Of a stretch of 64,000 nt of DNA, positions 31,601-55,745 are shown piece after piece. Position 1 is the first letter of the stretch; every line of letters begins with the position of its first letter. The stretch spans positions 7,815,167 through 7,879,166 of the forward strand of contig OZ038465.1 in NCBI GenBank assembly GCA_964036295.1, written 5' to 3'. The position numbers and the translations under genes were made by a program. The notes beneath the pieces were generated by a model that saw only the letters and a program-made list of their open reading frames with translations, was not told the DNA's origin and searched no databases. The stretch is from Plumapathes pennacea (lineage: Eukaryota; Cnidaria; Anthozoa; Antipatharia; Myriopathidae).

Positions 31601-33351
31601 CCCAGGAGAAAAACACGCGAGGAGACGCCAAACAACGATGAATACTCCTCGACCCCTCAGAATCCGGACCCCGAAAACCAGCGATCGAAATCCGAGGTTT
31701 CTCCGACGCCAGTGTTCTCGCGCACTCGGAAAATAGCCGAAATAGCTGCGCGCCGTCGTGGCGTAATCGACGGGGATAAGAGTGTCTCGTCAAGTCGGAT
31801 TAGTCTCCGAACGGACGACGGCGTCCCGACCAAAACGACGTTGCTTGTTCTTGCGGATGACGCGGAACAGACTTCAGAGACAAACTTAAAAATCGACGGG
31901 AAGAAATCCAAAACAGATGGCAGACGACCGTCGCCAGTGAAGGCATCGCTAAGCATGAGTGACTTGTCTGTGATTGACAAGAAGGGTGGTGACGCATCGT
32001 CGGAGGAGTCGCTTCCCGTTGTGAGAAGGAAACCTGTAGTGAGGAAACACAAGCCAGCGACCAAGAAGGTGGCGCCGGGAAGCAGGCCCACCAGACGACT
32101 GCGTTCAGCTTCTCTTGATGAGACGAAAATCCATAAAGGTAAAGAAGTGCCACAGTTTCTGCCACTGAACGAGAGTTGGATTTATTACTTCAGTGTCAAA
32201 TGTGGACTTGACTGAACTTCTGAACTTGGTAAAACATAAATCCTTAAGGTTGCAAGTGTCACACTAAATCAGCTACCATGCATGACAACACAATGCACAA
32301 AACATGATAGTGTGCACTTTTAATAGTTACTACTGTTTTCCTTCTGTTCGCTCCGTGGTCGGATGGTTGGGAGAACCTGCGTTCAAATGGGTAAACCTTT
32401 TTCTCATGTTCATGTTTGGCTGTTCTAGTTAAACCAAGACGCACACGCAAAGAAGAACTGCAAGAGCTGGCCAGGCAAAAAGCTGCAGAAGCGGCGGCAG
32501 CCGCACAGCAACCGTACTCGACCAGAAGCCGTGACCGAGCCGGCCTGGGCCTCGAAGGAAGAGGCTCAAGACGCGTGAAGAGAAGTTCCATTCCCAAGCC
32601 CTCCCCTGTGCGCGCCACAGATATCCCGCGTTTACCTGGGGCGAGTAAAGTGCTGAGTCTTCAGGGTGGTTTGATGAGTGCGACACCTGATGGTGAGTGC
32701 ATAGAAGAGTTGTTTCGCTAATGGATACTAACACAAGGCAAATTTTACTTGCAACACGACGCCATTGCGAGGCAAATTACAAGAGGAGAAACTGATCAGT
32801 TTTGGAAGATTGTTCTACTTTTCATGCAACTTGCCTTGCGTTGCAATTTGAAAGGAAAATAGCTCCTTTCGCGTTACCACCGGGATTGCTTTTTATTCGA
32901 AGCACACTCATGTTGCGTATTTTAACTTTTTCACTCCCAAGAGTGATCAACTTCAATTTTCTCCCTTAGTCTACCATGCAGTATAAAGAGCTTGATTTTT
33001 TATAGCTTACTCAGACGAAGTTACTCAGCTGATTGAAGTGTCCATTCTTACTACATCACGTTTTTGATGTGACATATTCTCTTTCGTTTCCTAGGCGAGC
33101 TTCGAAACTTCGTCAGCAATGCTACACCCCCAAGCACCGTTTACCAGTCAGGAGTCCCGGCGGGAAAAGGCCACACAATTCAGAAGAGATATCGTGGTGC
33201 GGCTGATAACGTGGGTTCCAACTCAAGCCAATCAACGCCTCGACTAAAACCGAAGAGAAACAGCCTTCCCCCAGCCAAAGGCGTCGACGAACTTTCGATC
33301 AGCGGAGTTGCTTTCCGGCCACCCAAGCATGTGTCATATCGCAAGAGCTAG
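22672..33351 (+). CDS. KIF19: Kinesin-8 motor KIF19
   Basis: KIF19 is a plus-end-directed motor that depolymerises microtubules at ciliary tips and sets cilium length. Twenty-one exons join in frame to 1137 aa: 22672-22710, 22804-22887, 24458-24568, 24699-24786, 24944-25080, 25704-25826, 26271-26363, 26572-26679, 26920-26998, 27268-27326, 27535-27657, 28116-28254, 28729-28816, 28894-28971, 29284-29915, 30183-30334, 30755-30809, 31069-31213, 31579-32138, 32429-32692 and 33095-33351. The P-loop GATGAGKT is at residues 105-112, switch I NQTSSRSH at 214-221 and switch II DLAGSE at 250-255. The motor is followed by the KIF19 neck ([19 protein letters not shown]) and coiled coils with EELLPKRI and [10 protein letters not shown]. 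The tail is long, basic and Ser/Pro-rich. Human KIF19 is about 998 aa, so the tail is longer here. Exons 12-13 (A|AG joint) and 17-19 rest on frame continuity rather than family similarity. Confidence 0.92.
23453..23806. repeat. 176-bp tandem duplication at a MITE edge (KIF19 intron 2)
   Basis: The sequence starting AAGGGCCATGTTTAAAGCTA at 23453 is repeated from 23629 with few differences, period 176 bp. The unit contains about 58 bp of flanking sequence plus the first part of the Harbinger-type MITE, including its left terminal repeat. Left ends therefore occur at 23514 and 23688. Confidence 0.85.
23514..24061. mobile_element. PIF/Harbinger-like MITE with TTA target duplication (KIF19 intron 2)
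   Basis: The terminal inverted repeats are GGCCCAGTTCAGACGCCAAT then CTTTTCATGAGCC at the left, and GGCTCATGAAAAG then ATTGGGGTCTGAACTGGGCC at the right. Both ends are flanked by TTA (23511-23513 and 24062-24064), the target duplication of PIF/Harbinger transposons. There is no coding capacity. The left part is tandemly duplicated, so the original insertion was probably 23688-24061 (374 bp). Confidence 0.82.
28375..28480. repeat. GATGAT/GGTGAT simple repeat in KIF19 intron 12
   Basis: An imperfect (GAT/GGT)n tract immediately downstream of exon 12. It creates a spurious Asp/Met/Val-rich open frame that reads on from the exon. Confidence 0.8.
30345..30620. repeat. GTT/GTC simple repeat in KIF19 intron 16
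   Basis: Imperfect (GTT)n, (GTC)n and (GGTGTT)n units fill most of intron 16. The opposite strand shows the corresponding Asn/Asp-rich spurious frame. No coding evidence. Confidence 0.8.
31297..31553. mobile_element. TTAA-flanked MITE in KIF19 intron 18
   Basis: The 257-bp element is flanked on both sides by TTAA (31293-31296 and 31554-31557). Its short terminal inverted repeats are AGGGGCCCTTTCA at the left and AGGGGCCCTCTCA (read inward) at the right. TTAA targeting is the hallmark of piggyBac transposases, although the terminal AGGGG differs from the usual CCC start. There is no coding capacity. Confidence 0.72.
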
Positions 33352-33445
33352 ACTCGGTTTCTTGCGGACGCTTTAGCAACTGGGGGTTCCGAAAGAACAG
33401 CGTCAAACGTGCAAAGGATGCCGACAGAGAGCGCATTTTTACTGT

Positions 33446-33757
33446 ACTCGAACTGACAACGTGTGAATAGAAATATTTCAGATTGACTGGCGCATCCTCC
33501 CATGTAACACAGCTGTGCCTGTGCGTTACCCTTGTTCCTCAGAACTATGTACAGCGAAATGAACAATGTATCTGTACAAAACAGAATTAATATTTATAAT
33601 ACTCGAATTGACGACGTGTGAATAGAAATATTTCAGATTGACTCACGCAAGCTCCGTGTAAAACAGCAGTGTGGCTGTGCGTTTCCCTTGTTCCTCAGAA
33701 CTATGTACAGCGAACTGAACAATGTATTTGTACAAAACAGAATTAATACTTATTTAT
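33446..33757 (+). repeat. Two 155-bp direct repeats in the KIF19 3' UTR
   Basis: Copies at 33446-33600 and 33601-33757 share ACGTGTGAATAGAAATATTT, CCTTGTTCCTCAGAACTATG, TACAGCGAA and GTACAAAACAGAATTAATA. They start 95 bases after the KIF19 stop codon and abut exactly. They differ by scattered substitutions, so the duplication is not very recent or has been conserved. Confidence 0.85.
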
Positions 33758-36700
33758 AAATAGTGTGTATACATATGTATTTACCTATCCATCGTCTATT
33801 TATTAAATAATGACATAAATAAGCATACTTTTTTCCAATACTTTTTTAAAAACTGTTGGTTCAGTCACTGCAATGCTTTTATTATCTTTTGAAATTACTA
33901 TTATTATTTTTAAAGGGAAATCGGATTATGTTCGATATAGCGGTTTTCAGGGTAAAATAACTACAGCCTTCGCGTACGTACGTTTGGCTGTTTCGAGTAT
34001 TCGTTGCTGTCTTTTAGAAACATTTGGGGCCGTATTCACCAAACTTACGTCTTGGTTTGGTGCGACGTGAGGAGTCTGGGGCGGGTAGTTACGTAACAAA
34101 TGCAGTCGCGCACTTGTGCGACCTTGTGGGCCCCTTGTGGCGGGAATGTTTTGATCGCATTCAGTGTTGCGACTCCAGTGCATGTAAAAGGCGAAGATTG
34201 AACTATTGTAGCCTGAAGTGTGGAAAAGTATTGTGGCCTTGTCGGACTGTACGTAGGGGAATCGTGAGTACAGGTACGCTACTCATATTTTATGTGCGAG
34301 CCGGCTCAAAGTTTGGCGTAATTTTTCACAGCTAAAATATTTATGTATGAACTCAGCCACAGACTGTTTATTGCCATATCATAAGCAACAGAGCTCTTCA
34401 AAATGTGCCCGAAATTCGAGATTCGGCATTGCAGAATGGAGTTTACACCAGTACGGATCAACCCGTTGTTTTTATTATCACTTTGGCTCAAAACAACAAC
34501 TGAATTTTACTTTCATTGTCGCACTGTTCCGAAGCATTACTGCAGTGATGGGATGCGGCAATTCGTTTTAAAATCCTGATATTCTTCATGTGTACGGTAC
34601 AGTGGCAGTGGCCGCGCTATATTCAAGACCTGTAATTAGAAAGTCAAACTGTGTTCATGTTCTCGTAAAAATCCTTGTTTCCATGGTTTGACGGAAGGTT
34701 TCTAGGTATACGACTAGTCCCTTGCCATGAATTTCCAATCGCCAGGGCAATGATGGCATGTTTGGGAAGAACTCTGACTCAACAATAACCCGGAGCTTTA
34801 TACCCAACTATTAGCGCAGCGAGCATTCATTTTACACATGTATTTGACCTGCGCTTGTCGAAACGGTGCGGTCTTTCATTTCTCTCTTGCAGTCGACAAT
34901 GTGTCTGGTAATGTTTTGCTGTCGGACCAATATCGTTGATGATTAGTGAATCTACTCTTGTTTACTCTAATTGAGACACATCCGTTTTTCGGAACTTTCG
35001 GTTTGGCCCGTGGTTTTGGATATTTTTGTGAAGACGATCGCAGGATGGACGTTAGAGGAGCTCTAGTTGGCGGTAAGCAATTATTTACCATATGCCACTT
35101 TAGTGATCCTAAATTCTGCACCTGTGAGGATCAGCCAGCCCCGCCATAACTTCTGGTCCACCAACTGTGTAGTATGTTGTCTTGTAACTTGTATCACTAA
35201 TGCTGTACTGTGATCTTACCACTCATTGGATCTTGAGCAGTGATCGCATGGATTTTGGAAATATTTTCTAACTGAAACCACGGTGAAAGTTTGTTGAACT
35301 CGCCCCAGACCTCAACGCATTAAAGTTAGACAGTTCGTTTCAGCGGGCAACTAGTCGAAGGTCGAAACTGGTCTTTCTTCCATTTCAAAACTAGCTTCTT
35401 AGAGTATATAATCAGTTGTTGGCGTTTTATTTCGTAGCCCGATTGTTCGGCGACTTATGATTCAAATCATTGTAAAATGAGAATTCCCGCTCCTAGTGGC
35501 CCCCTTATATTTGCAAAACTACACAGCGCAATTCCTCTCACAGTCAATTGTTAGGCCATAACAGTTTTATCTGATTCTTTTATTTCTTTTCTAAAGAAAT
35601 AAGTCCTAATGACAAGGGAATAAAGAAAATATATCGATGTGCTCAAGTAATTTTAATCCAACGCATCTTTTGAAGTAGCCAGCTAAAAATGTTTTCTCGA
35701 ATTTTCCATCGTTTTACTCCAAAGAAGCTTCGGTTTGATTTCTGGATTTAAGTCTGTCTTGTCAAGCATCGTAAACCACAATTCACTCGAACGTCAACTG
35801 CACATGCTCAGCGCTCAGCTCACGTGGCAACCAAACTTCGCTCGAGAAAATCTGGCACAAGTCTAGCTAGGTCACTTTAAGATATCAAAAATCCTTTTCA
35901 TGAATATGCTTGTTCAAAGTTCTTCCGCATTCTGGTTTTCTTGGACGTAGTCAAATTACTTAGAATGAAATTGAGTAAAACGACGGCAATAGCCTTAAGG
36001 AAAGAACCGAGCAATGATGTTTGTACGTCTCTATTCCTGACCGATTTCTTTGTAGTTGTAAACATTGGCCAACTCAGGAGAACTTTCATTTAAAATTCAG
36101 ACGGGGTCAGCTACAGAGCGTGGAAAGATTTAAGAGGGAAGAATTTATGCAACATTAGGTGACAGAATTTGCCTATCTATAAAGTAAAGTATCCCACCAA
36201 TTTTTCAAGAGTCGCCTAGTGTGGCGTATTTTAGTTAAAAACTGCAACACCAGAAGGATATCTACAGAACTTCCATCTTAGCTCTTGACTTTTAAAATAC
36301 AACTTCTTCTTCTTGTCAGGCAACATGACGCAGAAAACACTGTGACCGGTTTTTGACTATTATTTTAGACCAAACCCCTTTTGTGTCATCAAAACTAACC
36401 TCTTCACATGCACATAATATCTGTGTTGTTGTTCTCCGTGTTGTTCTTTCATAATGTGGTATCACAGCCCTAAGTGTCCCCCAAATGAATATTTTCTAAT
36501 AAAAACAACGTTCGGCCTAGCAAATCCCCTTCAAAGTCTCAAAATGCAACTTTATTGAACTGCTTAAATCCGGCTTTATACTTTTACAGAAAACAAGTCC
36601 TTTTTCCCACGGTGCATGCTAGCATTATTTACGACACAGAAGAATAAGTTGTGGCTCCACTGTAATCCGCAAAACTAAAATGCTTTATTTTGATTGTTCT

Positions 36701-39700
36701 GTTGATCAGTGCATGGGACATTGTCCACAACACGCGGCCACGCCAATCCAAAGCAACAGCGCAGTGGGCTTATTCGGAAGCCGTTTTTAAAAGGAAGAGC
36801 GTCGCTATGATTTTCCGCTGTATTCAGAAATTTTATGACTGCTTTATACCAAAACCGGTACATTAATTATGCTTTGCGAATCAAAAAATGTTATGAAACA
36901 ACCCACTTAGCAAATATGCCGTTTGACTCGGGTGATGTTTCAGTTGCCAGTTTCTGGTTTGTTGAACTTAAACATAGCCTCTTTTTAATTATTGCCCCAA
37001 CACGTAGTACTACATATTAAACGGCCGGTTTGTCATGGCGGCAAACATCACAGAATGGCCCCAGTTTCTTAAGTATTACTTCAGCTAGTTTTTCCTGGCT
37101 GTCACAGCTAGTGTGCCTCGCTGTACAAAAAAATAAAAATAACATAAAAATCATAATCCAGCCTGGTTCAGCAGGTGGATATCTATATCTATATCTATCT
37201 TTTTTTTTTTCTTATTTTTCGCCTTTAAAATGACGCTCTGAGAATTTTTCGTTAAACAAACAACTAAACAAAGCCTTTAAACTTTGGTGACGAGAAACTC
37301 CATTTTGTATAGAATGCTTCTACAAGCAGTGTTCTTTTCGCCAAGGCAACTTCAAGCCCTTTTGTGTCTTATTATGTTTAGTACAAATGGCCCAAATTGC
37401 ATTTTACTAAGAACTCAACCATAATTATTACGAAAACTTTCAAAGCGGCGGTTGTATTTTCACTAGAGTTTTAGTTTACCGCAATATCTTAATTTAATTT
37501 TTTAACTTTAAACATAGTGACATAAATGTCCTCCATCCTCCACCCGTGCGTTTACGCGGGATGGGGGGATTTACAATTAGCACGACAAGAATGATTTATC
37601 TTATATAGCTCAGAATCTCTGCCGGTGTCTCCCACAACACGAGTTTTTCGACCACTCATGTTCTCATTTCATTTTTTGTAACAGGTTCAACAGTGACAAG
37701 ACTATTTCGCTCTAAAAATCATTGTTATGTACATCTCGATCATCGTGAAATGGCCATGCGAACTGAAATTCTAGAGATTGCCGAAGTTAGCTGAATCAGG
37801 AGACTGGAAAGTTTAAAAAATAATACAGCCGAAAGTATAATTATTCGTAAAACTCGCGTTTTTGCGAAACCAATTTCTCCGTCCAAGCTAATCAGATATC
37901 AATTTCAAGCTAAATTTATTGCTTAGATATATTTTAAAGAGAATAGAATTATTACTGGAAGACTGATAAAGCCACAAAAGACACCGAAAACGAACTATTG
38001 TTTCGTGAAAATTATTTCCATTATAATGCAGACGCCATGATTTGCTTTGTCTTCGCTGACAGCTAGCAGAGAAAAGAGTGTCGTGGTTATGACTTTGCTG
38101 TGTGAGAAAAATACTCGACAAGTGTTAATTGCTTTACGGTGCCGAAGTCTGACCGGGGAGGAAAAGGTCTAACAGTAAATACATTCTAAGGAATGAATAA
38201 TTTATTCAGTAGGTTTTGAAAACGTAAAATTCGTGTTCCGATGTTTGTTTCGTGCATCCCTCCGTTTCAGGTTCACTGGACAGCAAGACAGTGGACTAAA
38301 AATTTCACTCTCCCCACTTGTCGAGAGTAATAAATTCATCTTTCCCTGAAAATATATTTGAATGTGCTTGTGAGCTAGCAAAAATAATTGATCAGTAAAC
38401 AAACTTGCTATACTGAACCCAACGGATACCTTTTTGTTTCTTGACGTGGAGTTTTCGGTTTAGACATATAATCAGGTTTATAGACTTTAGCAGCAAACGT
38501 ACCTACACCTCAAGTTCGATCGAGTACGCCTGTACACCCACCCTACCCCCACCCCTTACCGCACACACATATTCGAGGCCCTAATCATGCGCTAATATTC
38601 CTCTAAAGCGATTATCGTCTCATTCGTAAAGTGGCACAAAAAAAGACAAACGAGTTTTCCAATTCATAAATGTTGCTCCAATTCCAATTTGGCGATACCC
38701 ACCGACAAGAGGGTAAAAATTAGCTTGTACCGGTCTCTACGGTGTATTTCATTATTCGGCTGTGAAAGCACCCAAAGGTATGGGCGTGAAACCACCTGGC
38801 AGGGCGACTGTTTATTGTCGCACGAGCAAAGAAGGTTTTTGTTTGTAGTGTCCGTGACTTTTAGCTCAATATGTTTAATTTGCTCTTTACATGCTCAGGC
38901 GATGGGAAATTCATTTTAGGAGTCTCATAAGCTAATCTTTCTCCCCGCCATATTTGAGCGTGTGTGTGGAAATAGCTATTTCGAGAGTTTTTCTCACGCC
39001 CAATGACTAGTGTGACATTTGTGTACATTTATCCATTCAAAGAAACCATGTTGAAGTTATGTTTACCTATTCAATAGTGAGCGTTTTGTGGGAAACCGAT
39101 GTAAGAAAAATAGAAACATAGATATCTACGGGGTTGCCACTTTAAAGACTTTTAGAAGCGACATATGCAAACCTTGTTTATTTCAACGTTAGCTTCTCCG
39201 TGGTCGGTATGTTGCCTTAACGACCCCTTAACCTGCTTTGCAAGAATCTTAATTTTCTTTTTACTATTTCATTGTCAGCGGAGTGGCAAAAACGTCAACG
39301 TGTTTTCGGTCCTGTTGAGTCTGTCTTTCACAGGATTGTTACAAACACATATTTCGTTTTTGGGGGCAGTTATTGCTAATTTCGGTTAGCTATATATTAA
39401 TTGCACACGTGTGTTGACTGTGAATTAGGAAATTGCACGTTTTGTTGAACAGTTTACGTGGTCCTTGGTCACTGAAACTACCCAAGCATAAAAAAAATAT
39501 ATTTTAAACTGCCCTTCTTGATTCCGCGACTCGGAAATATACGTTTTCTGTTCGTTTTCTACTACGGCGATGCCGAATAAACCCTGCGGCCATTTCTTAT
39601 TTCCATTTCAGTAGTGATAAAATAATTTAAAACGATGGCGAGAAAAATACAGTCAGAGATAAAACGGCAACCCCCGAATTTGGGCTATTTGTGTTTGAGA

Positions 39701-41131
39701 AATAGCAAGTAATAAACCTATTATTGCCCCCGCGTACAAAACAGGTTGTTGAACGAAACTGAAGAAGTGACCATGCGTGAATTCGCGTTCGAGTAGGAGT
39801 TGCTGCGTCAAACACGTACTCTTTACCTTCGGCGCTCTCCCCTTTGTCCGTTGCCTTGTGGGCGTTTCATCAGAAATGAATTTTAAAATTTGCTTTTGTA
39901 AACAGCACTTAGGTTAGATTCAAATTTGATAAAGATCAAAGCTTATTGTCCATCCAGCTACGGTGTCAAATCTTCTAGTATGTCTGAAAGGCCGGCTAAA
40001 CCTTGAAGGACTCTTCTTCGTATTTCCTGCAACTTTTTCACTCTGTGAACTATTCCGCATAATATTGTGATCAAACATCTGAACTTTTTCTTCAAGTTAA
40101 CAAAGCGATGAGTTATATTTGTGATACTAGCGGTAAACTTTATCGTGCTGTGATGTTGAACAGTGTATCGATTTTGAGATATTAAGTTGCATCATGGCCG
40201 CGCAGCACCTGGGCAAAGGAAAACGTACGAGAGTTCACGGCAGAAACGCAAGCAAAACCTCTTTTAGTTTCGTGAGGGGATTACGTGTACGTAACCCACC
40301 TCATACTGGAGAACATTAAAATGGATGAGAATTTTACAACTTCGGGTTTTCACATCACTAACACATGGGTTTACAAAGGCACCCAAACAAAAGACAGTTC
40401 TTAAAGGCACATTCTCTTGAAGATTTTCCCAGCGCAGATATGGACCATAAAAGCACAAGATACCTTTGACAACCGAGACCAATTCCCTGTTGTATTTGTG
40501 CAAAGCCCTTTCAAACGTGTTTATTATTTGTCAAACACAGAATTTAAGTAAAATGAAAAGGGGATTTCATACAGTGAGCTAGGTAATTAAAGCCGAATTT
40601 CAAAGCTTTTATAGATTCGATTATTATACTTTGTCTTATGCAAATACGGTTCTCTGATGCTCACTTTAGGATATTGGAAGTCGGCTGGAGAGTTTCTGAA
40701 GCATTTGGATGATACTAGTTAACTTTACGTTGTTTACAGCTTGCTATGAATATGAACGAGAAAACATCGAATGAAACTAACCCAGAGCGTTTTTCTGGAA
40801 TACTCTCTGGCGCACCACTTTTACAGGACAAGTTACGTGCCGATAACCAGTATCCATGAGTGCTTGAACTACGAAATATGACCATTTTGTCTTATTGACG
40901 CATTAAGTAGGAGCAGGTACAGGAAATGAATCAAATGTGACATTAGCGTTGATTTGCATCACAAATGCAGAATATCGAAGAGGAAAATGTTTGCGAAACA
41001 CGCCGCCCAATAGGAAGCCACTGCTGACTCTTTGCATTTGTCATGAGTGCACCTGCTGAACAATTAATTTAGCTTTTATTTGTAAACTGCTAACAAACCG
41101 ATACTGGTCGGTAAATACATTCTCCAAGCAG
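33758..41131. other. Gene-free region upstream of FAM181-like gene
   Basis: Over 7 kb without a supportable coding exon. Open frames up to about 100 codons occur on both strands but lack motifs, splice logic or family similarity. Small simple repeats occur (for example TATC at 37184-37200). No SINE or MITE with clear ends was recognised. It could hold distal regulatory DNA for the FAM181-like gene, or unannotated noncoding RNA. Confidence 0.45.
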
Positions 41132-41140
41132 GCATAAATA
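41132..41140 (+). promoter_or_regulatory. TATA-like box upstream of FAM181-like gene
   Basis: GCATAAATAG lies about 160 bases before the ATG at 41295, a sensible distance for a TATA-driven start near 41165 with a short 5' UTR. This is motif evidence only. Confidence 0.3.
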
Positions 41141-41294
41141 GCGTGCGAATTTGTGCCTTGATCATTTAGTTGTGTGCGCACTTTCCGAGAGTGTAAAGAA
41201 AAGCGCCTTTGGACCTTGGTTTTCTTCATCGCACGCATCGTATTTAAGAGCATCAGGCTATAATCCCTTGCACGAAAACCAAGAAAAAAAAGGA

Positions 41295-42170
41295 ATGTCT
41301 GGGAAAGGAAAAGTGTGCAACGACCGGTCGGATCTTGGCGCAGGCAGTTCCTTGCTGAATTTCATGAACTTTGCTTCTGGCAATCTAAAATCGGCCTTGG
41401 AGAAGCCAGCGAACTTCAAGCGCAACATAAACCACCGAAGATATCTCCAGAAACAACTAAGAAACTACTCAAAACGAAAGAATGAAGTGAATCCAGTGAG
41501 GAAGTCGGGAGGTAGTCATGCAACGCGATCAAAAGCGAGCAGCAAAGCGCACGAGAAGAGAAGTGTTGTCAAGAACATCACGAAGACTTGGAGAACTGAG
41601 ATGAACCCTGACGAATTCATCACTAATGTTCAAGTGGAGAAGACACCTGCGCTGAGGGAAAGGAATTTCCCTTTGTCATTCTGGCAAGAACCGATCGTGC
41701 GAAACCCTGCCAGTGAGTGTGGAAATTTCTATTCCCTGGAACAGTATCAAACAAGAACTTCTTTGGACAACGGAGGTTACGGGACAGGCTGTGACTCTTT
41801 CTTTGAAAGCTGGGAAAGTTGCGGAAGGCAAGAATTGTCTCCCCAGTCGTCACACTGCGAGTCAGTTCCTTCCACCTTGTCAGATGAAAGCATTTTGGAG
41901 GAATTCTTGACGGGCGAGGAACTTACTCGCAGTATTGACATTAAAGACTTGTACGTCCCTGAACTATGCTTTACGGACCGAAGTGCAGAAGGATCACAAG
42001 AAGAGCTGCGTATTACCACACCGATGTCACCATCTCAGTATATTCTCTCGCCCAGTGAACAGGGATTCTTTAATTTTCAATTCGATCAGGACACACAGAG
42101 CCAGTTACCGCCCATTGCTTTAGCTTTCTTAAGTCCTTGTTCCTTATCAGGCGGTCAATCGTGTGAATAA
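41295..42170 (+). CDS. FAM181-like protein (putative TEAD-binding)
   Basis: A single coding exon of 291 aa. Vertebrate FAM181A and FAM181B are small, mainly nervous-system-expressed proteins reported to bind TEAD transcription factors. Residues 20-61 (LLNFMNFASGNLKSALEK, KRNINHRRYLQKQLRNYSKR) match the conserved N-terminal FAM181 block. Residues 120-133 (LRERNFPLSFWQEP) match the FAM181 segment that resembles the YAP omega-loop. The rest is Ser-rich and acidic (LSDESILEEFLTGEE), ending in a hydrophobic stretch (QLPPIALAFLSPC), which would suit a disordered transcriptional regulator. The frame stays open 48 codons upstream without another ATG; the ATG at 41295 (AAAGGAATGTC) is chosen. No introns are evident. 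Nuclear location and TEAD binding are inferred, not shown. Confidence 0.82.
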   Translation: MSGKGKVCNDRSDLGAGSSLLNFMNFASGNLKSALEKPANFKRNINHRRYLQKQLRNYSKRKNEVNPVRKSGGSHATRSKASSKAHEKRSVVKNITKTWRTEMNPDEFITNVQVEKTPALRERNFPLSFWQEPIVRNPASECGNFYSLEQYQTRTSLDNGGYGTGCDSFFESWESCGRQELSPQSSHCESVPSTLSDESILEEFLTGEELTRSIDIKDLYVPELCFTDRSAEGSQEELRITTPMSPSQYILSPSEQGFFNFQFDQDTQSQLPPIALAFLSPCSLSGGQSCE

Positions 42171-42171: not shown

Positions 42172-43425
42172 GTTAGCCCAGAGTTAAGAAATTATATCGT
42201 TTCAGTGTTCAGGAGACAAATTGAACATTGCTTAATTTAATAGTGGACATAAACCAGAAATACGCCGACTGATAATCGCCAATAAGTCGAACAGCAAGGA
42301 CAAACAAATCAATTGGTGTTTAAAAATACATCCTAGAATTTGCACAACATAGAGAGAACCAGCATGTCTCTCTCAAGTTGAAATAATAACGACTAAAGAG
42401 TTGAAATGTTTAGAAAAATCATACTATAAAATAAAACGTCAATTAATTAATTCACATGGGTTGTACTTTTGCCTTTCTAGTCAAATGTATTACTATTGGG
42501 AAAAAGTGGACTTATTCCCTGCTATAATTTCCCAGGTGTAAATTTGCCTTGCTCGGCATTTCCTTGCAATGTATTTATAGAAAACCGGCGGAAAGAAATT
42601 ATCAAATTATTGTATATTATACAAACAGTTGAACAAAGCATATAGTGCTCGTTCACATAAGCGGCGCCTTCAATGGCAGGCACAGAGTGCGTTGGCAAAA
42701 ACGATAAGTCATAAAACGATACATTTTTAGGAGGGCTTCCATATCTCGCCTGGTTCATAGACGAGAGTAACTTACATTTGCTTTGTTTGTCATTTTTAAT
42801 TATGCATTATCTGCATCATTGAATATAGCATGTTTTGGTGTTCGTTGTCGTTGAGCCCGAAAGATTCGAAGCCCCACGATGTATTTATGAGTCCTGTGTT
42901 CTTTCCGGCCGCATCTCAGTTTATGGATGTAAATGGTTAACCGCACGTATAATAACTACGGTATAATCATGCCTGTCAAACTAACGTCCGAAAGAAACGT
43001 AAGTTCTTTGGTCCGCTAATTCTCAAACCGATCGAGCTCTATTTACGCTAGCCGGGGAGGAAAAGGAGGGCCTAATCGCAGATTATATTTCACTGAAAGG
43101 ACGTTTATATGTTTTCTTTCTGTCTTGAGTGTAAATTGAAAAAGCTAAAGTAATTCAAATCTGAAATATTAAAATACTACCGGCACTGAATATGTTAATA
43201 CATCTTCCTTGTCATAGTAATACGTAAACTGTATTCTTCAAACTCCAATAAACCTTTGCAGTTTGACTTTCTCGCACAGCGACATATTACTTTAGACCAT
43301 AACTAACTGTGGAGTGCGTAATGGAAAAGAAAAGGACTCCTTTAAAACTGCGTCGCACATGCGCAGAAAATCCCCTATGAGCATGTCATTTTATTGCGAA
43401 ATTTCAGATCATGGGAGTTTCGAAT

Positions 43426-43770
43426 TACAGTGAAATCTCTCGTAAGCGACCACCTATCGTAAGCACCGCGACCATCATTGAGGCTCACCGTTTGAGTTTT
43501 TCTACTGTTTTATTGTTTTTGTTTTTGTTTGTTTGTTTTTTGTTTTTTTTTTTACCTCCGGTAAAGCGACCACCCTATGAAAGAGCAAATTTCTGAGCAA
43601 AGACTAACTTCTTTGCAAAAACTACACCGGATAAAACATATGTAATGTAACGTGCAACAGTTTGTATTCACTCACTAAAACTGCATTATTTGATACTGGT
43701 TGTGGCTCAAAAGCTGGATCTCACTTAGGCCTTCTATGGTGAGAAATTCCCGTAAGCGACCACTTAAAGA
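43426..43770. mobile_element. Degraded element with GTAAGCGACCAC repeats
   Basis: TTACAGTGAAATCTCTCGTA followed by AGCGACCACC begins at about 43427 and resembles pogo/Tigger ends. Related copies of AAGCGACCAC occur at about 43564 and 43755 (after GAGAAATTCCC). A CTTTTG/TTTTTG-rich stretch splits it at about 43510-43555. Both true ends could not be paired, so limits are approximate. Confidence 0.4.
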
Positions 43771-46352
43771 CGAACGAGGTGGACAAACGAACAAATGGAA
43801 AATAAACTCTGAAATTTATTTATACATTCAGCCAGTGATTCCTGTTGTAAAGAAAGGGGGCACAAGTTTCACAGCGTAAAATTTCGAAATTAAGATGCAC
43901 GTTTATCAGACGGTCAATCGCTCATAACGTTATTAGGTTAGATGGAAGGATACTGATGAAGATAATTCCAACGATAGCACTGGTAGTACACAATACAAAT
44001 TAAAGTATAAAGATCGCTTAGCTGTTCTCTCGTTCGCCTGGCTTTCTTGAATTTCACTTTTTACACGTGGGCAGTTTTATGCAAATAGGACTTCTTTCAT
44101 AAACACCTTCCGAGTCGGCCTGCTATGATACAATTAAAATAAACGGATTGAACAACGCGCGGAAACTGATTGGTATGTTTGACTGGTTAGTCTGAACAGT
44201 CACGGCCATTTTATGAAAGCAACCACACGGCCAGCTGCCTATAAACATGACACTGAAGGGTTTCTTTGCACAAGACATTCAAATTTTCGTCTGCACAATG
44301 AATCGTGAATATAGAAACAAGTTTAATTGTTCTACCAAACAAAAACTAGACAAACACTATTTGAGGTTCGACAGCAATCGACCCATGTGAACCTGTGCAA
44401 TTGAGCAATACTTCAGTGATTTGTACTTTAGAAGGTTTGCCCAAAAATGACGAATTAAGATAACTAGAAGGCCCAATCAATATTTCAATTTTGGGCCAGT
44501 TGATTCAATAATTATCACAACTTCAAACAGAAAGTTTAGAAACCATTCCATACAAAACCTCTTCCAAAGCTTCCTTTTTGACATCTATAACAGCGATCCA
44601 ATGAATAAAACTTGAACGTTGCAAATAATATATATAAATAGTTCTTCTATATTATGATCAATGAAATTATCATCATGACTGGACACTAAAACGGGTCAGT
44701 CAAGTCAGTTCGCTGTGACTAGTTAATGGTAACAATTGTTACAACTTGTGGTCTTGAATGGCAGTATCCAGAGTGCGAGCCTGTAAGAGCAAATCAGGTT
44801 TTGGTCCTTTGAATATTCAATTCTATAGTGTGCATATAGTGTTCTTCTAATAAGTTTCTGCAATGTATACAAAGAGGATTGTTTGAATTCGCTGTGCCAA
44901 AGTAGATAGAAATTTTAAAAAGACGTTTGAGCAAGTAAACAATTTGGTTTAAATACAAATTAGGAAACTCACCCGACAAACGTGTTGTTCATATGGGAAT
45001 TAATTTTATTGACCGAGAAACAATAGTGTTAAAAGTTACGGTTGGTGAACAGTTTTATTCAGCAAAGCAAATTAAAACAAAACAAAGCGAAGAAAGCCTA
45101 CCAGCCATTACAGACTCGACTGGACAAAAGAATATTAAGTATAGCTTACTGGAGTTTTCAACACGAAGGTTGAAGATCTGATTTACTACTCGAATAGTTT
45201 ACTATGTGGTTTACTGGTGGTGTACGTGTAGTGTGTGCGTGGAAGTTAGTGCTTCTTTCTATCTTTTTTGTATCGCCTAAACCTCATGAATAAATTCCCA
45301 CGTGTTCTGTGAAGGAAGATTAGCAGTTGATAATTATAAATTGAGCTGGAAGGTTATGAAATCGATCAAGGCTACGTACACGTTAGTATTATATATATAT
45401 TGATTGATGTTTGAGGACCACTCGAAATTGAATTATGTTATTTGCCAAATCGATGATAATCATTACATCTATTTGTTCCACAAAATTCAACTTATGGAAT
45501 TTTTAGTATCAATTACTAGAAGCTTCCTTTCTGACACGAAGTGAAAGCTGCATTTCTAGTTTTCTCTCTTGCACTGTCCAGTTTCATGTCTTTGTACTGT
45601 TGCGTCGAGTGAGTCAAGAAACCCTTGATTCTTTTTCTGACTTGGTGTGGTAACAAACAAAAACATGGCCTGGGAGGTCCCGAAGAAAAGTATTGTTGGC
45701 CAATATACTCATAATAGCGGCGTCAATTTGCTACCTAGGCTATGAGAGTGCAGATGCAGTGTCAGTGTACTAAACGCACGGAGTTATCTTTGTCTCGAGC
45801 AAACCCGTAATTAAGTAACATAAATAATAAAACGATATGTCCTTCCGCACAATTCTTTTGTTTTTACTGCTGTTGTCATCTTGTATTGGCTCATTATTGC
45901 TGTATTAACTGCTATCATTTGGATATTGAGAGACAAAATAGGGTCCTGATAGTCCTACATCGCTATATAACTAAAACAAATACTAATAGGGCCAGAGATT
46001 CTTTGTGAGCAGGGTTCGGCCAAGTAAATCAAGTAAAAGTAGATCCTTGTGGAGCGACCCTTTTCAAAAATATCGGCAGTAGTGAGCTAGTACAGTAGAT
46101 CCATTTGTTGAAACGGCATATAATTACAATCTTCTAATCTCGTCTGTCACCACATACTGACGCTCCTTGGTACTCATAAACAAAGTTATCGGATACTCTG
46201 CTCAAGAATTATCTGCCTGTATCAGTTCTTGAAGTAGTAAAGCCGGCATGGTTTTCGCGAGCGATGCAAGACAAGCACAAGCATATAAAAGCGCGGGCAC
46301 AAGGGTCCCTATTTCACAGTGAAAAGCACAAGAGTCACCTTATACCATAAGA

Positions 46353-46445
46353 AAAACAGGCTCGACGCAAGCAAATGCACAAACGCAAGCGCAAGCCACA
46401 AGGATCAAAATGTTCTTGTGCTTGTGCTTTGGTCGAGCCTGTTTT
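46353..46445. mobile_element. Short foldback element
   Basis: Perfect 14-bp inverted repeats AAAACAGGCTCGAC (46353-46366) and GTCGAGCCTGTTTT (46432-46445) enclose CAAGC/ACAAGC-rich sequence. The whole could fold into a hairpin. Related CAAGCACAAGC motifs continue to the left (46270-46350). It may be a tiny MITE or a palindrome within a larger repeat. Confidence 0.5.
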
Positions 46446-46463
46446 CAAATTTGACCAAGAACC

Positions 46464-46689
46464 TTGTTCAAAGCAAGGTTAAGCTAACCCCCGGTTAAGT
46501 CTAAACTTTGTTGTCATTTTTAAGCCTAAAAAACAAAAGCGTTTGATCACAAAGGGAATCCGTCGCTATGTTCTGAGCAAGAACAAACTTTTTAGCTAGT
46601 CTATGACCAAAACTCTGCAGTTTGTTAGACACAAACAAAAGAGAAAGAATTTGGTCAACCCTGGGTTAGCTTAACCGGGCTTTGAACAA
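46464..46689. mobile_element. MITE-like foldback element, 226 bp
   Basis: The terminal inverted repeats are TTGTTCAAAGC then GGTTAAGCTAACCC at the left and, read inward, TTGTTCAAAGC then GGTTAAGCTAACCC at the right. They are separated by AA and CC respectively, giving about 27 bp of near-perfect match. There is no coding capacity, and the target duplication is not obvious. The AAGCTAACCC/GGGTTAGCTT palindromes make the ends strongly self-complementary. Confidence 0.68.
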
Positions 46690-49600
46690 CCCAGCCCAAG
46701 CTTGGAGAATTCCTCCGGGACAGAGTATTGGTCAGTCAGACAAAAGCTCGTACTATCAGAAAAAGAAAAAGAAAAATGAATGCGACTCTCTGTGTTGCAG
46801 CTGGAAAATGGTTGCGCACTGGTCGCTTAGAGGCGGAACCTTTGTCTGGGATATTCAAGTATCTCGGCAAAAAACATGTGGAGCTACGTGCGGACAACAG
46901 AGCAATAAGTAAGTGAAAGCGTACTTTAACCTAACAAGCCAATCCGATAATAGAAAAGAAAACGCTCTGAATTAGAGTCTGTTAGAGGTGCAAATAAACT
47001 TCAGTCATGTCGTCAGACTGAAAGGCTAGAAGGCAGCTAATTCGGTTGAATAAGGTAGTTAAAGAAAAGAGTCTGTAGGGCGGAAATGTACGCAAGTTCT
47101 CAATCAGGCTTTTGCCATTTTGGATTAAATGGACATTTCTCATCAGTATCCAATTTGAGTGATTAGTAACAAAGATCCCCCGCGTTTACACAGATCTTCC
47201 TTACTCTACCTTGTATGGCTCTTAAATTCACACCCCGGGTGTAAATTTTTAATTAGATTGGCAATGTTAGTGCGTGTGGACATTTGGCCTATCCAACGAG
47301 GTGTTATTAACGTAGTATGAAGCAGACCCCCATTAATTCTTCGCCTTCAAAATACATTTGTCTTTGTTCAAGAACTGTTTTTTCAAGAAGCTTAGCTTGT
47401 TGGGACTGTCATTCATAAGACATTATGACGCACAACAATGATGTTTACCGGTCAATTTCCAGTGATTCAAAAGCAGTCTCAGGACGTTCCGAAGGTCAAT
47501 CAAATAATAAATACTTCATTAGTCCGTAGTATTTTTTAAATTAATTTATTTATTTTTTGTATCTTCATTTAACATGGCCTTTGTAACAGTCGTTTCCGAA
47601 ACGGTTCTTCTTCAAGCCCATCGCGGGACTGACACCCCACACCCGGTACTTTTCGAACTTGTTTCCGGACATGTGGTCAGTTTTTCTTCCAATACTTTCA
47701 ATGTAAAACCCGTAAAACATAAAGGTTTCATAGAAAATAATATTCTGAAGCACGCTGTCGCCACCCGTATGCCGGTGGGTTGGAATGTGTTACCGTGTTA
47801 CTGACTAATGTGTCTCGCAAATTCTTTGTTTTTACCTTTAATTTGAATGAAGACACTAAAATGTATTATTGCTGTCTTTATTGTACTAGAACAGTGTTTT
47901 AAACAATGCACTGCTTCTTTTATATTTTTCTTTCAGAGCCGGTTGGTCTCATTGGCGACAATAGCCTGGCATCGCCTTCACCTTTTTTATAAAGTAGGTT
48001 ATGAAAGGCTCGTAATTTTTCAAATTTATCTGTTAATGAGTTACCCAGGTTTAACTGTCAGAGTTCGGGTGAATAAAATATACTTTTACTAAGTTACTCT
48101 GGTAAATCAGGAGAAGTCGCAATTATTGTATAAACTGTTGCCTAATAGCAAAGTATACGGCCCCGAGCACTTTAAGAGATTAACGTTATGAAAGGAAGAC
48201 GAATTAGTGAGCAAGCTCAGTTTAATACATTTATTGCGATAGCAAACTGAGTTGCTGAGAGGATAATCAAATGTCGTCCAATTAATTGAAGTTTTAACAC
48301 GTGCACAGCCAAAAACCCTTCTACGGAGATGTGGTTTTTTACTTACAAACTATAATTAAAAAGCTATTAGTGTATCGTAAGGTGTTAAAATGCTCTCATG
48401 GCACAAAATGAAGTAAAGCTTTAATTATCACTGTTTGTTTTTCTCCGTTCTTGAGCCTCGCCGTTCTTTCTTCAGTCGTTGTGTCTGTCTACCCACACAC
48501 ATACGCATGCACACACGTGGATGTCTAAAGTTGGATGTTCCTTGAAGCAAACTTTGCCTTAGGCACTCAGGCAATCCGTGCGCAACTTGGTTCATCACTC
48601 CTCTTGGTACGCTCACCTTCATAGTTTTCTCTCTCTCTCTCTCTTTTTTTTTTTTGCAAGCAAACCTTGTAATGTACTCAAGCGAAGCTTTAACTGAGAA
48701 CTTTTGTTAACACTCCCTCATTCTCCAGACGACCGGCTACCACTACTATACCACCTGTCTGAGTACACCTGTCCAAGAGACACACCTTGGGTAAATAAAA
48801 AAAAAACATTTTATTATACGACGGGATCTGCGCCTGTCGGGTCCCTTTGTTAGAATCCTGAGCCGTTCAATTAAGTATCATGTGGTACAACAAGCAAAAG
48901 TGCACTAAGCAACTTGTAATTGATATATCACTTACACCAGGCACACAAACAAAAAATACCTGTTGAGAGCATGCCTGCTCAAGCAACCTGTAAACCTTAA
49001 GCTGTTTCACCCGTGTTTGAATGCCGCAGAGAAAGACAACTCTATGGGAGACCTAGACAGGACTGCATGATTAAACTCTCCAAAGCAACTTCAGTAGAAC
49101 ATATATTTATACAGAACGTTGCTGTCTAAAATCTAACACGCGTATAAGTATATACAGAGCCGGTTTATGTATCAATACAAAAGGCTGTCGAGACCACCAG
49201 GCATATGTTTGAGATAATAAAAGCACTTCCTGACTGGTTGGCATATTGTTTATAGGCATGCGGCATGCGTTTACTAAACTCAATGGGCCATCAGTCTCGT
49301 CATGATGACACTATCAACACTGAACAACGCGAGTCTTTCTAATGGAAGGACTGTTTATATAGGTACGCGATATTTTACTATCCAATCGGGTATGACTCGT
49401 ACGAGCTAAAGAACGAACTGAGTTCTCAGACTCACAGCAGGAAGCATCCATTCATCTTCCAAATAAATTAGTCTGTGGACAATTTGATTTTCTATTGTTC
49501 TTCTTCATCGTATTGTGAATAGAAACAACTCATTAAACCTGCAGGTATTGATATAAACATCGCGGCAAAGAAAAGGCTCTTAGGTACGTACTGATTTAAA

Positions 49601-49952
49601 AATTAGGCTCCATACACGGTAATGCTAGTGTTTTCCCTGCCAATTTGGCCATATCCTGTATCCAACCTTAAGACACGTTGTTTTAGTTGTCCAATTCCGA
49701 AAGAAACGAATAATTCTAAGATCGATGAAAACGTTGACCCGGCGTCCTGTGCAAGGATTGTTGCACAATAACCAGAAATAAATATTTTACACGTGTATAT
49801 TTTGCAAGTCGAACCCTTGGTTCTACTGAACACATTAAAACTAACTTTAGCGCATTACCCTGGTCAATTGCCTTTGCACTCTTTCATTGGAGAGCTCAGC
49901 ATTCACAACCAGAAGTAAGCTCAAGTTCACTTTTATCTCCGAAACACAGCGG

Positions 49953-50424
<472 letters not shown>

Positions 50425-51242
50425 CGGCTCTACGTGCGGTTCGGTGCGGTGCGATGATTTGGCTTTCAAAACCTTGCTCAGACGAAAGCTGTTTGAACTC
50501 GCACACGGAAGCGTACTCTTTTGCATTATGGAAGCATTTGGGAATTTGAAAAAACACGAAAGAAATGTGGCGAAGCACAACGGCTTCTTAAACTTAAATA
50601 TATCTTGGTTTGTGATTGGTTGAAAGTTTTTTCTTACAGCCTCTGTGATTGGCGCGGTGTACTTACATACAGCTACAGCGGCTTCTCTGCATCTCTCTCG
50701 TGTTCTTTCAAATTCCGAAGTGCTTCTATTTAAGCAATATAACACGTGTTGCCATGTCTTTATTAAACACTCGGGATGTTGTGAGAACACGAGAACTCGC
50801 TGAAGCGGCTCGTGATTTTGAACTTTTTCTAGTGTTCTCAGAACATAACTCATAATATCTCAATCAGGATTATTTTTTGCCCATGATTGACCAAGAATAC
50901 TGCTAAACTTGTTTCGACCAATCGGAAAGCGTACCAAACGCAGAACCAAGCCAATCACACGATTACTTTCGACAGTTATCCGAAACCGAATGTAAAAGAA
51001 AGTCACTAGCTGATTAGTGCCAACTCTCAGTTCAACTACAAAAATTATGCTCAATCCACTTCGTCTCAGGTTCAGGCTACGGCTTTTGACTGTACGAGTT
51101 TTGTCTGACTCAGTACTCTTTGCCTTGCATCGATCCTGCATTCTCGCGGAGAGATTCCTGCCGAAGCATTGGTTTTTCATTAGCAAGCCGTTCAGTGTTC
51201 TTGTCAATGAGCTGCACCCGTGAACTTCACTAAAGTAGGTCT

Positions 51243-54200
51243 TTAACCCGGCAAACTTTGCCTTCTTGGGTGAAACAACGACTTCATGGAACTCAGAAAT
51301 CCGTTCGTGTTGTTTCCTGGAGAATGGCTTTTTTGTCTGGATTTTTTCGTAAATCGCACTTGAAAGACCATATTGTAAAATATGACCTGAACGTTCCTGT
51401 TGGTCAGCGCAGAAGTCTCATAAAAGGAGCATGCGTACTCCGCAGCCGTTTCTCTAGCCTCTTCTTTGGAGACGCTTCTGCCTCGTCTCAGATCTCTCTT
51501 GTTCCCGACCAACAAGATGGGGACCTGGCAATCGCCCTTGGGTTTCCTGACTTCTTTGATAAGTTTGATTAGTTGCCGAGCCGCTTCGAAGCTGTAGTGG
51601 TCTATAATGGAGTACACGACCACAAAACCTTCAGCGGTTCTAATATAGGACGCTTCTGCCTGTGAGGGTATAAAAAATATGCAGTTTTAGTCTTGCCACA
51701 GCCCACGGTGAGCCGGAACTCTAACCTAGGTCCAGGCCTGTTTATTGGGCTTTTTTAAATGATCACTTCTGCGTCGAGATTTCCTTCGTCCTCTCTTGAG
51801 CGGGAAAGTTAGAACCAGCCTATTTAGACAATAAATAATGCCTTTGCCAAGAAGATTACTACCATTAATACATGATGTCTCAGAACTACAGAGGGAAGTT
51901 TGTTCAATAGGTCTATAATTTGTCAAGTTTATATCCATGCCGTCAGTCAGTTGCTGCTTTACCCCATTATGATAAAGTCTATGCTGGACAGTGTTCCCTT
52001 GCACCGAGTATGTTATCGTCTGTAGAGTTTGCCTATAGATCTGCATATGAGTCTGAAGAACATAAGATGAGCATGCGCTCAAAGATGTAGCTAGCCGCTT
52101 ATTCAGCTAGCCACTCGGTATGAGTAAACGGCGTACAATAGGCTCCTTGCACGAGAACTGGCACGAGCTTCAAAACAAGGCTGTCCTGGCATAACTGAGA
52201 AGCTTAACTCCCCAAATGAAACATGTGCATCTTTTCTGTAGAAGCCTTGTTGCTTTAGAGCGATGGGATTTCATGTCTGGCAAATTTCGTGCCAGGTTAG
52301 CGTCGCTTTGAATTCAAGATGGCGGCACAGTGCAATGGGCAAGTGACGTCATCACTATAGACATTTTTCTTTGCAATCTGATTTTTGTTCTCGTAATGTT
52401 TTTCTTTTCTTTTCTGTTTTCTGTTTACAGTCAGTTGTGTACACTACTGATGGGTTATACTTACATTTCCCGCGGTGTCAAGAATCTCAAGAGAGACAGT
52501 GCTGTCTCCGATATTCATCACCTTTTCGTAAGTCATCTCTGAAATAAAAGGCACAGATACAATACCGAAGATAATTCGTTTATAAGAGGATGGGCACCAT
52601 GTTTATTCAATGTATATTATATAGAAATGGTTGTTATAAATGCGGCAAACTATGAAGATGCTATGCCTTTCCTTCTGTCCCCTGACGTTTACTACATGAC
52701 AAGGCATTATATTTTCTGTAATGAACCTGAAGTAAACTATCCAAAAGAAAGTGCATAAGAGGATACTGTAGATATCCTGGTGTCGATCATTGGCTCAAGC
52801 AAGATAACGATTTCTGGTCCTTCAACCTTAAAAGCTTTAGAAGCTCGGATATCACAGCAGATGATTGAGACAGTATCGTGTCGCTTATTATAAGGATACT
52901 TTTATAATAAAAAGCCTATATCAATCCTTATATCCAATCATGCTTTGATTTTAAATTTATTGTTGAAATTTTACACAGTACGATAATTGGAACGTGCAAA
53001 GGGAGGGAGGGGGGGGGGGGAAGATCGACTGCAATCAACAGGAGCACTTAAACACAGATAAGCGCACTTCTTAACATGTAGTGGAGACGGAACTGATCAG
53101 GTGACTTCAGACCTCACATGCAGTCATAATTCAAAGCATTTTGCATTTTTACATTTTGCATTCCTGGTCGTCCTTATTTAGCGGGAACCAGGCTTCGCTC
53201 ACTATGTGTGTATGAACTTATATGCAATCTAGCTACAGTATAAGGACTCTGTATTAATATACGTATGTAAAAAAAAGAAACAATATTCGTTATTATTATT
53301 TAAACCCCTTAGGAACGTGCAAAATATGATATATATACTCACCCAACGTTGGATCATATTCGTTTAGAAACCTTCCGGTCACAAAGCGTACCACAAGAGC
53401 TGTAAGTTTGAAAATAGTGCACCATATGTCAATCAAACATGTAATTGCCCATCAGACGGTGATGACTTACAAATTAATTCTTCATTTACAAATGGAATTA
53501 ACTATTCATTGCACTTTTATCTAGTAACCTTCTTCCTTTTTACTTAAAAAGCATGTTTTATGTTTTGCCATCTACTGAATTAAAGAAGCTATGACAAAAA
53601 TGTTACTTTGTTTGCCGACCTCTGCTTGTCTCTGTTATTTTCGAGACTAAGAAAAACAGGAAATTCCTAGTTGAGAGTAAACACACTTTCTAAAAGCCTC
53701 CATCTTCCGACCATCTGCTGCAAGACTGCTCAAACTGCTCAAACAAACCTAGTGTCCCAAACGCGCCGTCAACCCACTTTGCTTTGTTACCCCAAGCCGC
53801 GTTATCCCGCCAAAGTCAGCTTTATCTTAAAATCAGCTTAAACGTCTGGGCTGAGTAATAAACTAAACAGGCCTAGATCATACAATATGTTATGCCTGCG
53901 ACCCAAAGAATAAGACTTAAGGGTGGCCAAGGCTGAACTGTAGAGTTAATTGATCGACCAAACACTTCGATGCAAGACAGAGCACACTTATTAACACGAG
54001 AACAATAAAATATAATTTTGATACATGTCGGGGTATATGATCACCTACGGAAGGGTACGATAGAATAAGCCTCTCAGGTTGCTGTTAATCTCCTTAAAAA
54101 TATTGCTGTCTGATTAAGAAGTCATGCAAAATAATGCCACGAAGGCCTAACTTCCCCACCTGTTTTGCCAACGCCGCCAACGCCAAGAACAACGACTGAA

Positions 54201-54490
54201 TGTCTCTCGGAGCTGTTCTGAATTGCTTCTTTACTGCCGCCGTACCGAACTTTGCTTCCTAACAAACTTGGGCGTTTTTTCAACGCGGCAACGTCCGTTC
54301 TAATTGTTCCCAGCGTCTCGTGATTGGAACAACTGTTGCTGCGGCTTTTGACTGATTTGTCTTTAGGGGAAGCGGACTGACTTCCTCTTCTGGTCGTTGC
54401 GGTGAAACTTTGATGGGGAGGCTGTAAGAGAGTCCTCGTTTCTTTCATGTTGGAAGTGCTGTGTGGCTTGTGGGACAGATTACTGGACAT
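51243..54490 (-). CDS. Ras-like small GTPase with N-terminal extension
   Basis: Four exons, 54490-54160, 53399-53343, 52538-52465 and 51659-51243, join in frame to 292 aa. A Ser/Thr/basic extension of about 95 residues precedes the G domain. G1 GVGGVGKT is at 103-110, switch I EYDPTLEMTY carries the invariant Thr128, and G3 DTAGN is at 150-154. G4 NKRD is at 207-210 and G5 SAL at 237-239. The tail (KKSRQKSHSPG, MKSLFHPRRQSLPG) is basic and Ser-rich and has no CaaX box, so prenylation is not expected. DTAG is followed by Asn instead of catalytic Gln61. The stretch up to EGFVVVYSI is about 5 residues shorter than in H-Ras, exactly at an exon joint (a missed microexon is possible). The combination recalls RERG, RASD and RGK proteins; subfamily is not assigned. 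Confidence 0.85.
52317..52327 (+). promoter_or_regulatory. YY1-like motif inside the Ras-like gene
   Basis: AAGATGGCGGC, a perfect YY1-type core, lies in the last intron of the Ras-like gene on the opposite strand. It could mark an antisense or internal promoter, or be chance. No open frame of interest follows the ATG. Confidence 0.2.
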
Positions 54491-55745
54491 ATGGGAATCA
54501 GTGTGGGCGCATCTTACAAGATTTTAAAAGTGAATCGATGTCAAGTTTGATCACTGGTGTACGTTACACCATGATATATCCAGTATGGAAACATATTAAG
54601 TTTTTCTTCCAGAAAATGTCAGCTAATATAAGCCATATTGTTCAGCCTGACAGCCAGGTTATTATCTAATATCCTTAAGACAACAAAGACCATTTTCTCT
54701 ACATTTCTTCCGAGACAATTACAAAAATGCAAATTAATGACAATCATGAAATTACGGCTTTAACTAAATCACTCCCTCAGCTTCGATCTATGAACGAGTA
54801 AAATAGAGCTTTTCAATGTCATGAACAGAGAGTTTGAGTTAATCAATGATCTGAGCTTCACATACCTACTAAAGCTTGAATCTTCCCCTTAGGACTTGTT
54901 GGAAAGCTTCCAAGTGTTAGCATGTGTAAGGGTTAATGGAAATCTGAAGCGAACGGCTTTTCTGTCATACAAAAAAGCAGTATAATTGAAGAGGTCAAGA
55001 GACAAGTGGGCTCAGCATAGCTGACCAAAAATAAACACGTAAAGCATACAATAGGCGGGTAATTACACGAACGTTGCTTAAACTAGAATTAAAGGTGGCA
55101 GCTTTACGGTCTCATTTAATCTCGTTGGCAAATTTTAATAACGACGTTTCATTGCTCGTGTAAAAACCTTTCACCCATAAGAAGGTCACTCAAGAGGCCA
55201 TACTGAATACACTACATACTCAGTTCCTGATTCACTTCATATTTCTTTATAGTATACAAGTACATCTTGTCGGTACGCTTTAGAACACCATGGCAACGAG
55301 CCCATTATAGTTATAAGTTAGGGACCGTCTAGGTTATTTTCTCCAATGCAATGGGTGAGCTGTGTTTACGATATGGCCAACAAAGCGAGGCGTTTTCAGA
55401 GAGTTGTGAGTAAACTATCCTGCCACTAGTTTTTTGATGAACATTTACAAAGTACACAGAGTCTTGGCCTTTCCATTAGCTGTTCTGTGTTACATCCGGA
55501 GCGTGTGAACCAAGGACAAACGCGGCACTGAAACTTTAATTGCAGCCACAATGAATGCGAGATCAGCGCTTTTTATATGCAAACGTGGAACATGTTTTGC
55601 ATTTCTCTCCGTATTCAACGTGTTCAATTGATCTAGAATAGTTGATCAAAACTCTAACGCGGTCAGTTTTAATCCTGTTAACCTCGTTACACAACAAAAA
55701 TGCGTGACGGGCTGGGATTTTGGAAAAGAAAAATCATAAACATAC

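Follow-up and report, generated by a model that had tools for sequence, protein, structure and literature searches.

The window analyzed here, a stretch of 64,000 nucleotides with a GC content of 40.2% and animal-like genes, contains on its forward strand a single-exon open reading frame (ORF) at 41295–42170 that encodes 291 residues plus a stop codon. The frame around it extends over 342 residues from stop to stop, starting at 41142, compared with longest frames of 123 to 235 residues in 20 shuffled windows. A TATA-like element, CATAAATAG, at 41133–41141 (+), about 160 bases 5' of the ATG, and an AATAAA at 42430–42435 (+), a possible polyadenylation signal, are in keeping with a single-exon transcript; a further AATAAA, at 42166, shares bases with the stop codon. 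All three are motif matches only, and GC at the third codon position of the ORF is just slightly raised (0.452, 0.445, 0.493), as would be compatible with a pseudogene or a chance frame that is not expressed. The probability of such an origin is negligible, however, for an intact frame of 291 residues that carries two conserved blocks in register and whose stop-to-stop length is above that of all 20 shuffled windows. A TEAD-type site, GGAATGT, at 41292–41298 overlaps the start codon. It is probably a chance occurrence, since the forward strand of the window contains 16 copies of GGAATG and 17 of CATTCC, and autoregulation through this site was rejected.

The surroundings of the ORF were scanned against Pfam in the three forward frames of 25001–39999 and in the three reverse frames of 42501–57499 and 10001–24999; an Rfam search gave no match at gathering score. 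Upstream of the ORF, pieces of a kinesin motor at 25677–27648 (+) have KIF19, a cilium-length kinesin, as their best PDB match, and the ORFs at 29144–30019 and 31544–32215 may represent the kinesin tail. A Ras-family exon at 51357–51656 (−) is closest to RERG among PDB entries, and a P-loop motif in the ORF at 54122–54523 (−) may belong to an upstream exon of the same gene. An inward-rectifier potassium channel is encoded by one uninterrupted ORF of 451 residues at 2699–4054 (−), with Kir2.2 as the best PDB match. In human, KCNJ2 and KIF19 are both located at 17q24-q25, and the pairing of Kir2.2-like and KIF19-like genes in the window could be an old linkage. An EF-Tu-type GTPase is present on the reverse strand, with domains at 15768–16001 and 12426–12602, and the nearby ORF at 10905–11390 resembles the C-terminus of GTPBP1/2. 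The ORF at 8997–10025 (−) has a conserved-looking N-terminal part that is reminiscent of the dynein regulatory complex protein IQCD/DRC10, and ends in a proline run. A match of this ORF to PRIMA1 (E 0.038) was below the cut-off, lies within the proline run and was rejected; PRIMA1 neighbors FAM181A in human, to which no weight was given. Tandem repeats were noted at 17847–18214, 23452–23801 and 33445–33753, with approximate periods of 92/185, 174 and 156 bases respectively. At 59260–59500, copies of ACCCTATTTCAGACCAAAAT form an array that ends in CCCTTTGGGGCGGCACATACCTATAT; this is presumably a repeat frequent in the genomes of corals and other anthozoans, and it is the one hint to the taxon, which is probably cnidarian, perhaps a stony coral or one of its relatives. 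A search for the 26-base core of the repeat in the viral contig collection and one for the repeat in a phage collection gave no match.

The 291-residue protein consists of four segments: a basic N-terminal conserved block (residues 19–61; 41349–41477, +), a basic linker (residues 62–119; 41478–41651, +), a putative omega loop with the sequence LRERNFPLSFWQEP (residues 120–133; 41652–41693, +), and an acidic C-terminal part (residues 134–291; 41694–42167, +). The charge is sharply divided, with a pI of 10.6 for residues 1–119 and 11.5 for residues 20–61, against 4.05 for residues 134–291, which contain 25 Asp and Glu but only 7 Lys and Arg residues. A full spacer scan detected one bipartite nuclear localization signal (NLS) pattern, at residues 48–64. 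The AlphaFold model obtained from the single sequence is unusable (mean pLDDT 39.4, pTM 0.20, loop region below 50); this low-confidence model contains a helix at residues 16–65, of which only residues 41–60 are near a pLDDT of 60–70.

Residues 19–61 align without gaps to the N-terminal blocks of human FAM181A (22/43 identities) and FAM181B (23/44 identities), where both reference blocks are provisional versions of the human sequences. With these provisional references the alignments score 128 and 121, well above the maxima of 53 and 46 reached in 2000 shuffles each, and a phmmer search returned the ORF as the sole match among 2,195 six-frame pieces of the window (E 2.3e-12 with FAM181A and 4e-11 with FAM181B). 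The provisional references are credible, because the FAM181A loop of the same origin equals the letters of PDB chain 6l9f_C and because the FAM181B block used ends at residue 106, in agreement with the range of 59–106 given in the description of the human FAM181B N-terminal block in PMC9710580. The same description defines the FAM181 family by two regions, the N-terminal block and the TEAD region. Both are found here in the family's order, with the loop starting 58 residues beyond the N-terminal block, and the assignment to FAM181 is therefore firm. The earlier note had proposed FAM181 membership from these two blocks and had located the first at residues 20–61; both proposals are borne out, the N-terminal block (with its provisional references) giving a far stronger signal than the loop. 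Searches with tblastn of a prokaryote contig collection (599 and 327 pattern stretches) and of a viral contig collection (14 pattern stretches) gave no stretch encoding a relative of the protein.

The loop itself was compared with several references. In register with residues 86–99 of a provisional YAP reference, Leu120 falls at Met86, Arg121 at Arg87, Arg123 at Arg89, Phe125 at Leu91, Pro126 at Pro92, Ser128 at Ser94, Phe129 at Phe95, Trp130 at Phe96 and Pro133 at Pro99. The match to the Pfam family PF15238 (TEADIR3, 'Omega loop, TEAD interacting region 3') spans exactly residues 120–133; its E value is 0.0024, and its score of 18.5 bits is below the curated cut-off of 26 bits. No other family matched the protein up to an E value of 10. 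In a PDB sequence search, a 31-residue piece matched 6l9f_C, the FAM181A peptide (E 0.088), and 6y20_C, Drosophila Vestigial (E 1), and no further chain. With 75 residues, FAM181A was third (E 0.77), under two chains of an unrelated caveolae protein that match the linker, and with the whole protein a caveolae protein was the single match listed (E 1.3); the caveolae match to the linker is weak (E 1.3 and 0.27). Aligned directly to the 6l9f_C peptide, the loop is identical at 8 of 14 positions and scores 54, compared with a maximum of 34 over 2000 shuffled versions of the protein and 28 for the next-best ORF piece of the window. Against YAP alone it scores 30, which was matched or exceeded by 23 of 2000 shuffles, and phmmer with the short loop alone gave a weak match below inclusion (E 0.017). 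A single occurrence of [ML]..R.[LF]P.SF[FWY]..P was found in the 2,195 six-frame pieces (88,022 residues), and the shorter core [LF]P.SF[FWY] is present in two of them, the second at 29229–29447 (+). Since the Pfam score is below the cut-off and the PDB E values are weak, the loop taken alone is suggestive but not conclusive.

These results bear on several statements of the earlier note. The ORF and its 14 loop residues lie where that note had placed them, and the loop positions that it had equated with YAP are all correct, with Arg121 and Pro126 now added; the LPASFW core that it had ascribed to FAM181A is present in the 6l9f_C peptide. It had also named the lack of a significant profile match as grounds for abandoning the FAM181 assignment. 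On this point the outcome is divided, as the Pfam match is placed exactly on the loop while its score falls under the curated cut-off. The Pfam model cannot in any case separate FAM181 from YAP, because its old name, FAM181, was also applied to the N-terminal TEAD-binding region of YAP in the Hippo study of Hydra (PMC8526868, where the label is given to this region). It is the N-terminal block, rather than the loop, that decides the family from the sequence. The former name of PF15238 is an annotation trap, by which regions of YAP become labeled as FAM181.

The protein was further searched for the other elements of TEAD cofactors. No LxxLF-like pentapeptide is found between residues 62 and 119, and a decayed interface-2 helix was rejected, as the linker scores 18 against YAP residues 50–84 (matched or exceeded by 1330 of 2000 shuffles) and the whole protein 22 (matched or exceeded by 1162 of 2000 shuffles). 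Motif scans of the protein detected neither a VxxHF (TONDU) helix nor a LATS-type HxRxxS site, and the Pfam scan up to an E value of 10 gave no match to a WW domain or to Vg/TONDU. In the FAM181 family, the LxxLF motif is reportedly present in FAM181B only and lacking in FAM181A. The published descriptions disagree: PMC10146773 restricts the TEAD contact of FAM181A to interface 3 and has both FAM181 proteins lacking the helix, while interfaces 2 and 3 are given for both FAM181A and FAM181B in PMC9710580. As FAM181A lacks LxxLF on the account of PMC10146773, the motif is not required for membership of the family. The protein shows a loop-only pattern of the FAM181A type at the sequence level, and the SFW-x-E-P segment is likewise of this type; the loop-only state may be either ancestral or a parallel loss.

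Comparison with known TEAD cofactors places the protein closest to vertebrate FAM181A (PDB 6l9f_C, also 6SEN as listed in PMC10146773). The two share the N-terminal block (measured against the provisional reference), the SFW core, the Glu-Pro after the core and 8 of 14 loop residues, and neither has an LxxLF helix. Differences of the window protein include Phe instead of Leu at the place of YAP residue 91, a core Ala replaced by Leu, and Leu rather than Met at the place of residue 86. The comparison covers the N-terminal block and the loop. The taxon of the window protein is probably non-bilaterian. FAM181B of vertebrates and annelids is also alike in the N-terminal block (provisional reference) and the omega loop. 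The LxxLF helix and the SFF core attributed to FAM181B are both absent from the window protein. Relative to YAP, TAZ and Yorkie, the interface-3 positions 86, 87, 89, 91, 92, 94, 95, 96 and 99 keep their type in the loop, but the WW match, the LxxLF motif and the LATS-type site are missing. The loop has in common with Drosophila Vestigial (6Y20) the core RNFPxSFW, in which Phe stands at the place of YAP residue 91 and Trp at that of residue 96. PMC7566471 describes a TONDU VxxHF helix in Vestigial and Ser at the place of Arg87, whereas the window protein has no VxxHF and keeps Arg121, and with it a stacking partner that Vestigial has lost. PERCC1 and C19orf85 have an N-terminal helix related to that of FAM181, to which PERCC1 adds interfaces 2 and 3, as outlined in PMC9710580. 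In these descriptions C19orf85 is without TEAD motifs and PERCC1 has LxxLF, which sets both apart from the window protein.

It is accordingly worth asking if the protein belongs to another family of TEAD cofactors, YAP/TAZ, Vestigial/VGLL or PERCC1, instead of FAM181. The RNFPxSFW core resembles Vestigial, a region of YAP has carried the Pfam label FAM181 (as seen in PMC8526868), and the N-terminal helix of PERCC1 is described as a distant relative of that of FAM181 (PMC9710580). Yet the lack of VxxHF and of WW or Vg/TONDU matches up to an E value of 10, the lack of an LxxLF motif that is conserved in PERCC1 and YAP according to the same description, and the identity of about half of the N-terminal block to FAM181A and FAM181B (provisional references) make such an affiliation highly improbable. 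The gene is very probably a FAM181-family ortholog with a predicted loop-only, FAM181A-type TEAD-binding site.

A structural precedent for this site is provided by the crystal structure of the Vg:Sd complex (6Y20). In the contacts described in PMC7566471, Met324, Phe329 and Phe333 of Vestigial fill the pocket of YAP Met86, Leu91 and Phe95, Trp334 is at the place of YAP Phe96, Arg327 forms a salt bridge and Ser332 makes hydrogen bonds. In sequence register, Leu120, Phe125, Phe129, Trp130, Arg123 and Ser128 coincide with these contact places. Phe125 and Trp130, the least YAP-like residues of the loop, therefore have a structural precedent, because Vestigial carries Phe and Trp there (PMC7566471, same contacts). 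By analogy, docking on TEAD at interface 3 is predicted. The loop would fold onto the interface-3 pocket with Leu120, Phe125 and Phe129 as its hydrophobic core and with Trp130, stacked on Arg121, as its lid; Arg123 would form a salt bridge with an Asp of TEAD, and Ser128 would be hydrogen bonded to a Glu and a Tyr. The pocket residues that PMC7566471 names for TEAD4 are Glu263, Asp272 and Tyr409. The basic N-terminal half and the bipartite-NLS pattern at residues 48–64 suggest that the protein acts in the nucleus, where the loop may compete with that of YAP for TEAD as a ligand of presumably modest affinity. The composition of residues 134–291 is compatible with cofactor recruitment, and further factors may be recruited by this acidic part or by the conserved N-terminal helix. 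Because no LATS-type HxRxxS site was found, the Hippo kinases would not control the access of the protein to TEAD as they control that of YAP.

Published data on the vertebrate proteins concern both binding and activity. FAM181A is among the most enriched TEAD4 neighbors in a BioID dataset reported in PMC11574045, and the inhibitor IAG933 blocks FAM181A from TEAD as well as YAP/TAZ according to PMC12672301. The experiments described in the latter with HEK293FT cells could not determine an effect of FAM181A/B on TEAD activity. Within the FAM181 family, a protein whose loop no longer binds TEAD, or binds too weakly, and whose function is carried by the conserved N-terminal helix may have a precedent in human C19orf85, in which the N-terminal block is retained and TEAD motifs are described as not recognizable (PMC9710580). 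The absence of interface 2, which leaves a single contact, the deviations from YAP of Leu for Met86 and Phe for Leu91, and the better conservation of the N-terminal block than of the loop would all agree with such a loss. The hot-spot positions are kept, however, although the linker has no similarity to YAP interface 2 (score 18, at shuffle level), and Phe and Trp at the deviating places work in Vestigial, as the complex of PMC7566471 illustrates. A non-binding loop is thus unlikely, and a predicted TEAD-binding FAM181 ortholog is the preferred reading.

On the present alignments, the gene is an additional member of the established FAM181 family. FAM181A has been placed in a profile cluster of 'genes present in chordates' (PMC8470418), and family members are described from annelids (PMC9710580, in its account of the family; PMC10380512). 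Searches of an open-access paper library brought up no report of a FAM181 gene from a cnidarian or other non-bilaterian; one may be shown in the supplementary figures of PMC9710580, and entries from cnidarians may well exist in UniProt, under FAM181 or another name. Hydra is known to possess YAP, TEAD and the Hippo core (PMC8526868); 'FAM181' in that study denotes the Pfam domain in YAP and not a FAM181 gene.

An origin of FAM181 before the bilaterians is likely. A bolder scenario is that FAM181 was a separate loop-only TEAD cofactor in the cnidarian-bilaterian ancestor, alongside YAP and Vestigial, and worked in a ciliated or neural cell program rather than in growth, forming a Hippo-kinase-independent TEAD branch. 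The ciliary part of this scenario derives from outside the window, since FAM181A is a candidate multiciliation gene (PMC8470418) and FAM181B ranks as a hub gene in the ciliogenesis modules of an annelid (PMC10380512). The scenario as a whole is doubtful. If the organism is a cnidarian, FAM181 would date at least to the cnidarian-bilaterian ancestor and, if the predicted binding is true, the FAM181-TEAD partnership may predate its reported distributions. A cnidarian FAM181 would then offer a tractable system for early rival, kinase-independent TEAD cofactors, as well as a route to the role of the poorly understood FAM181 proteins.
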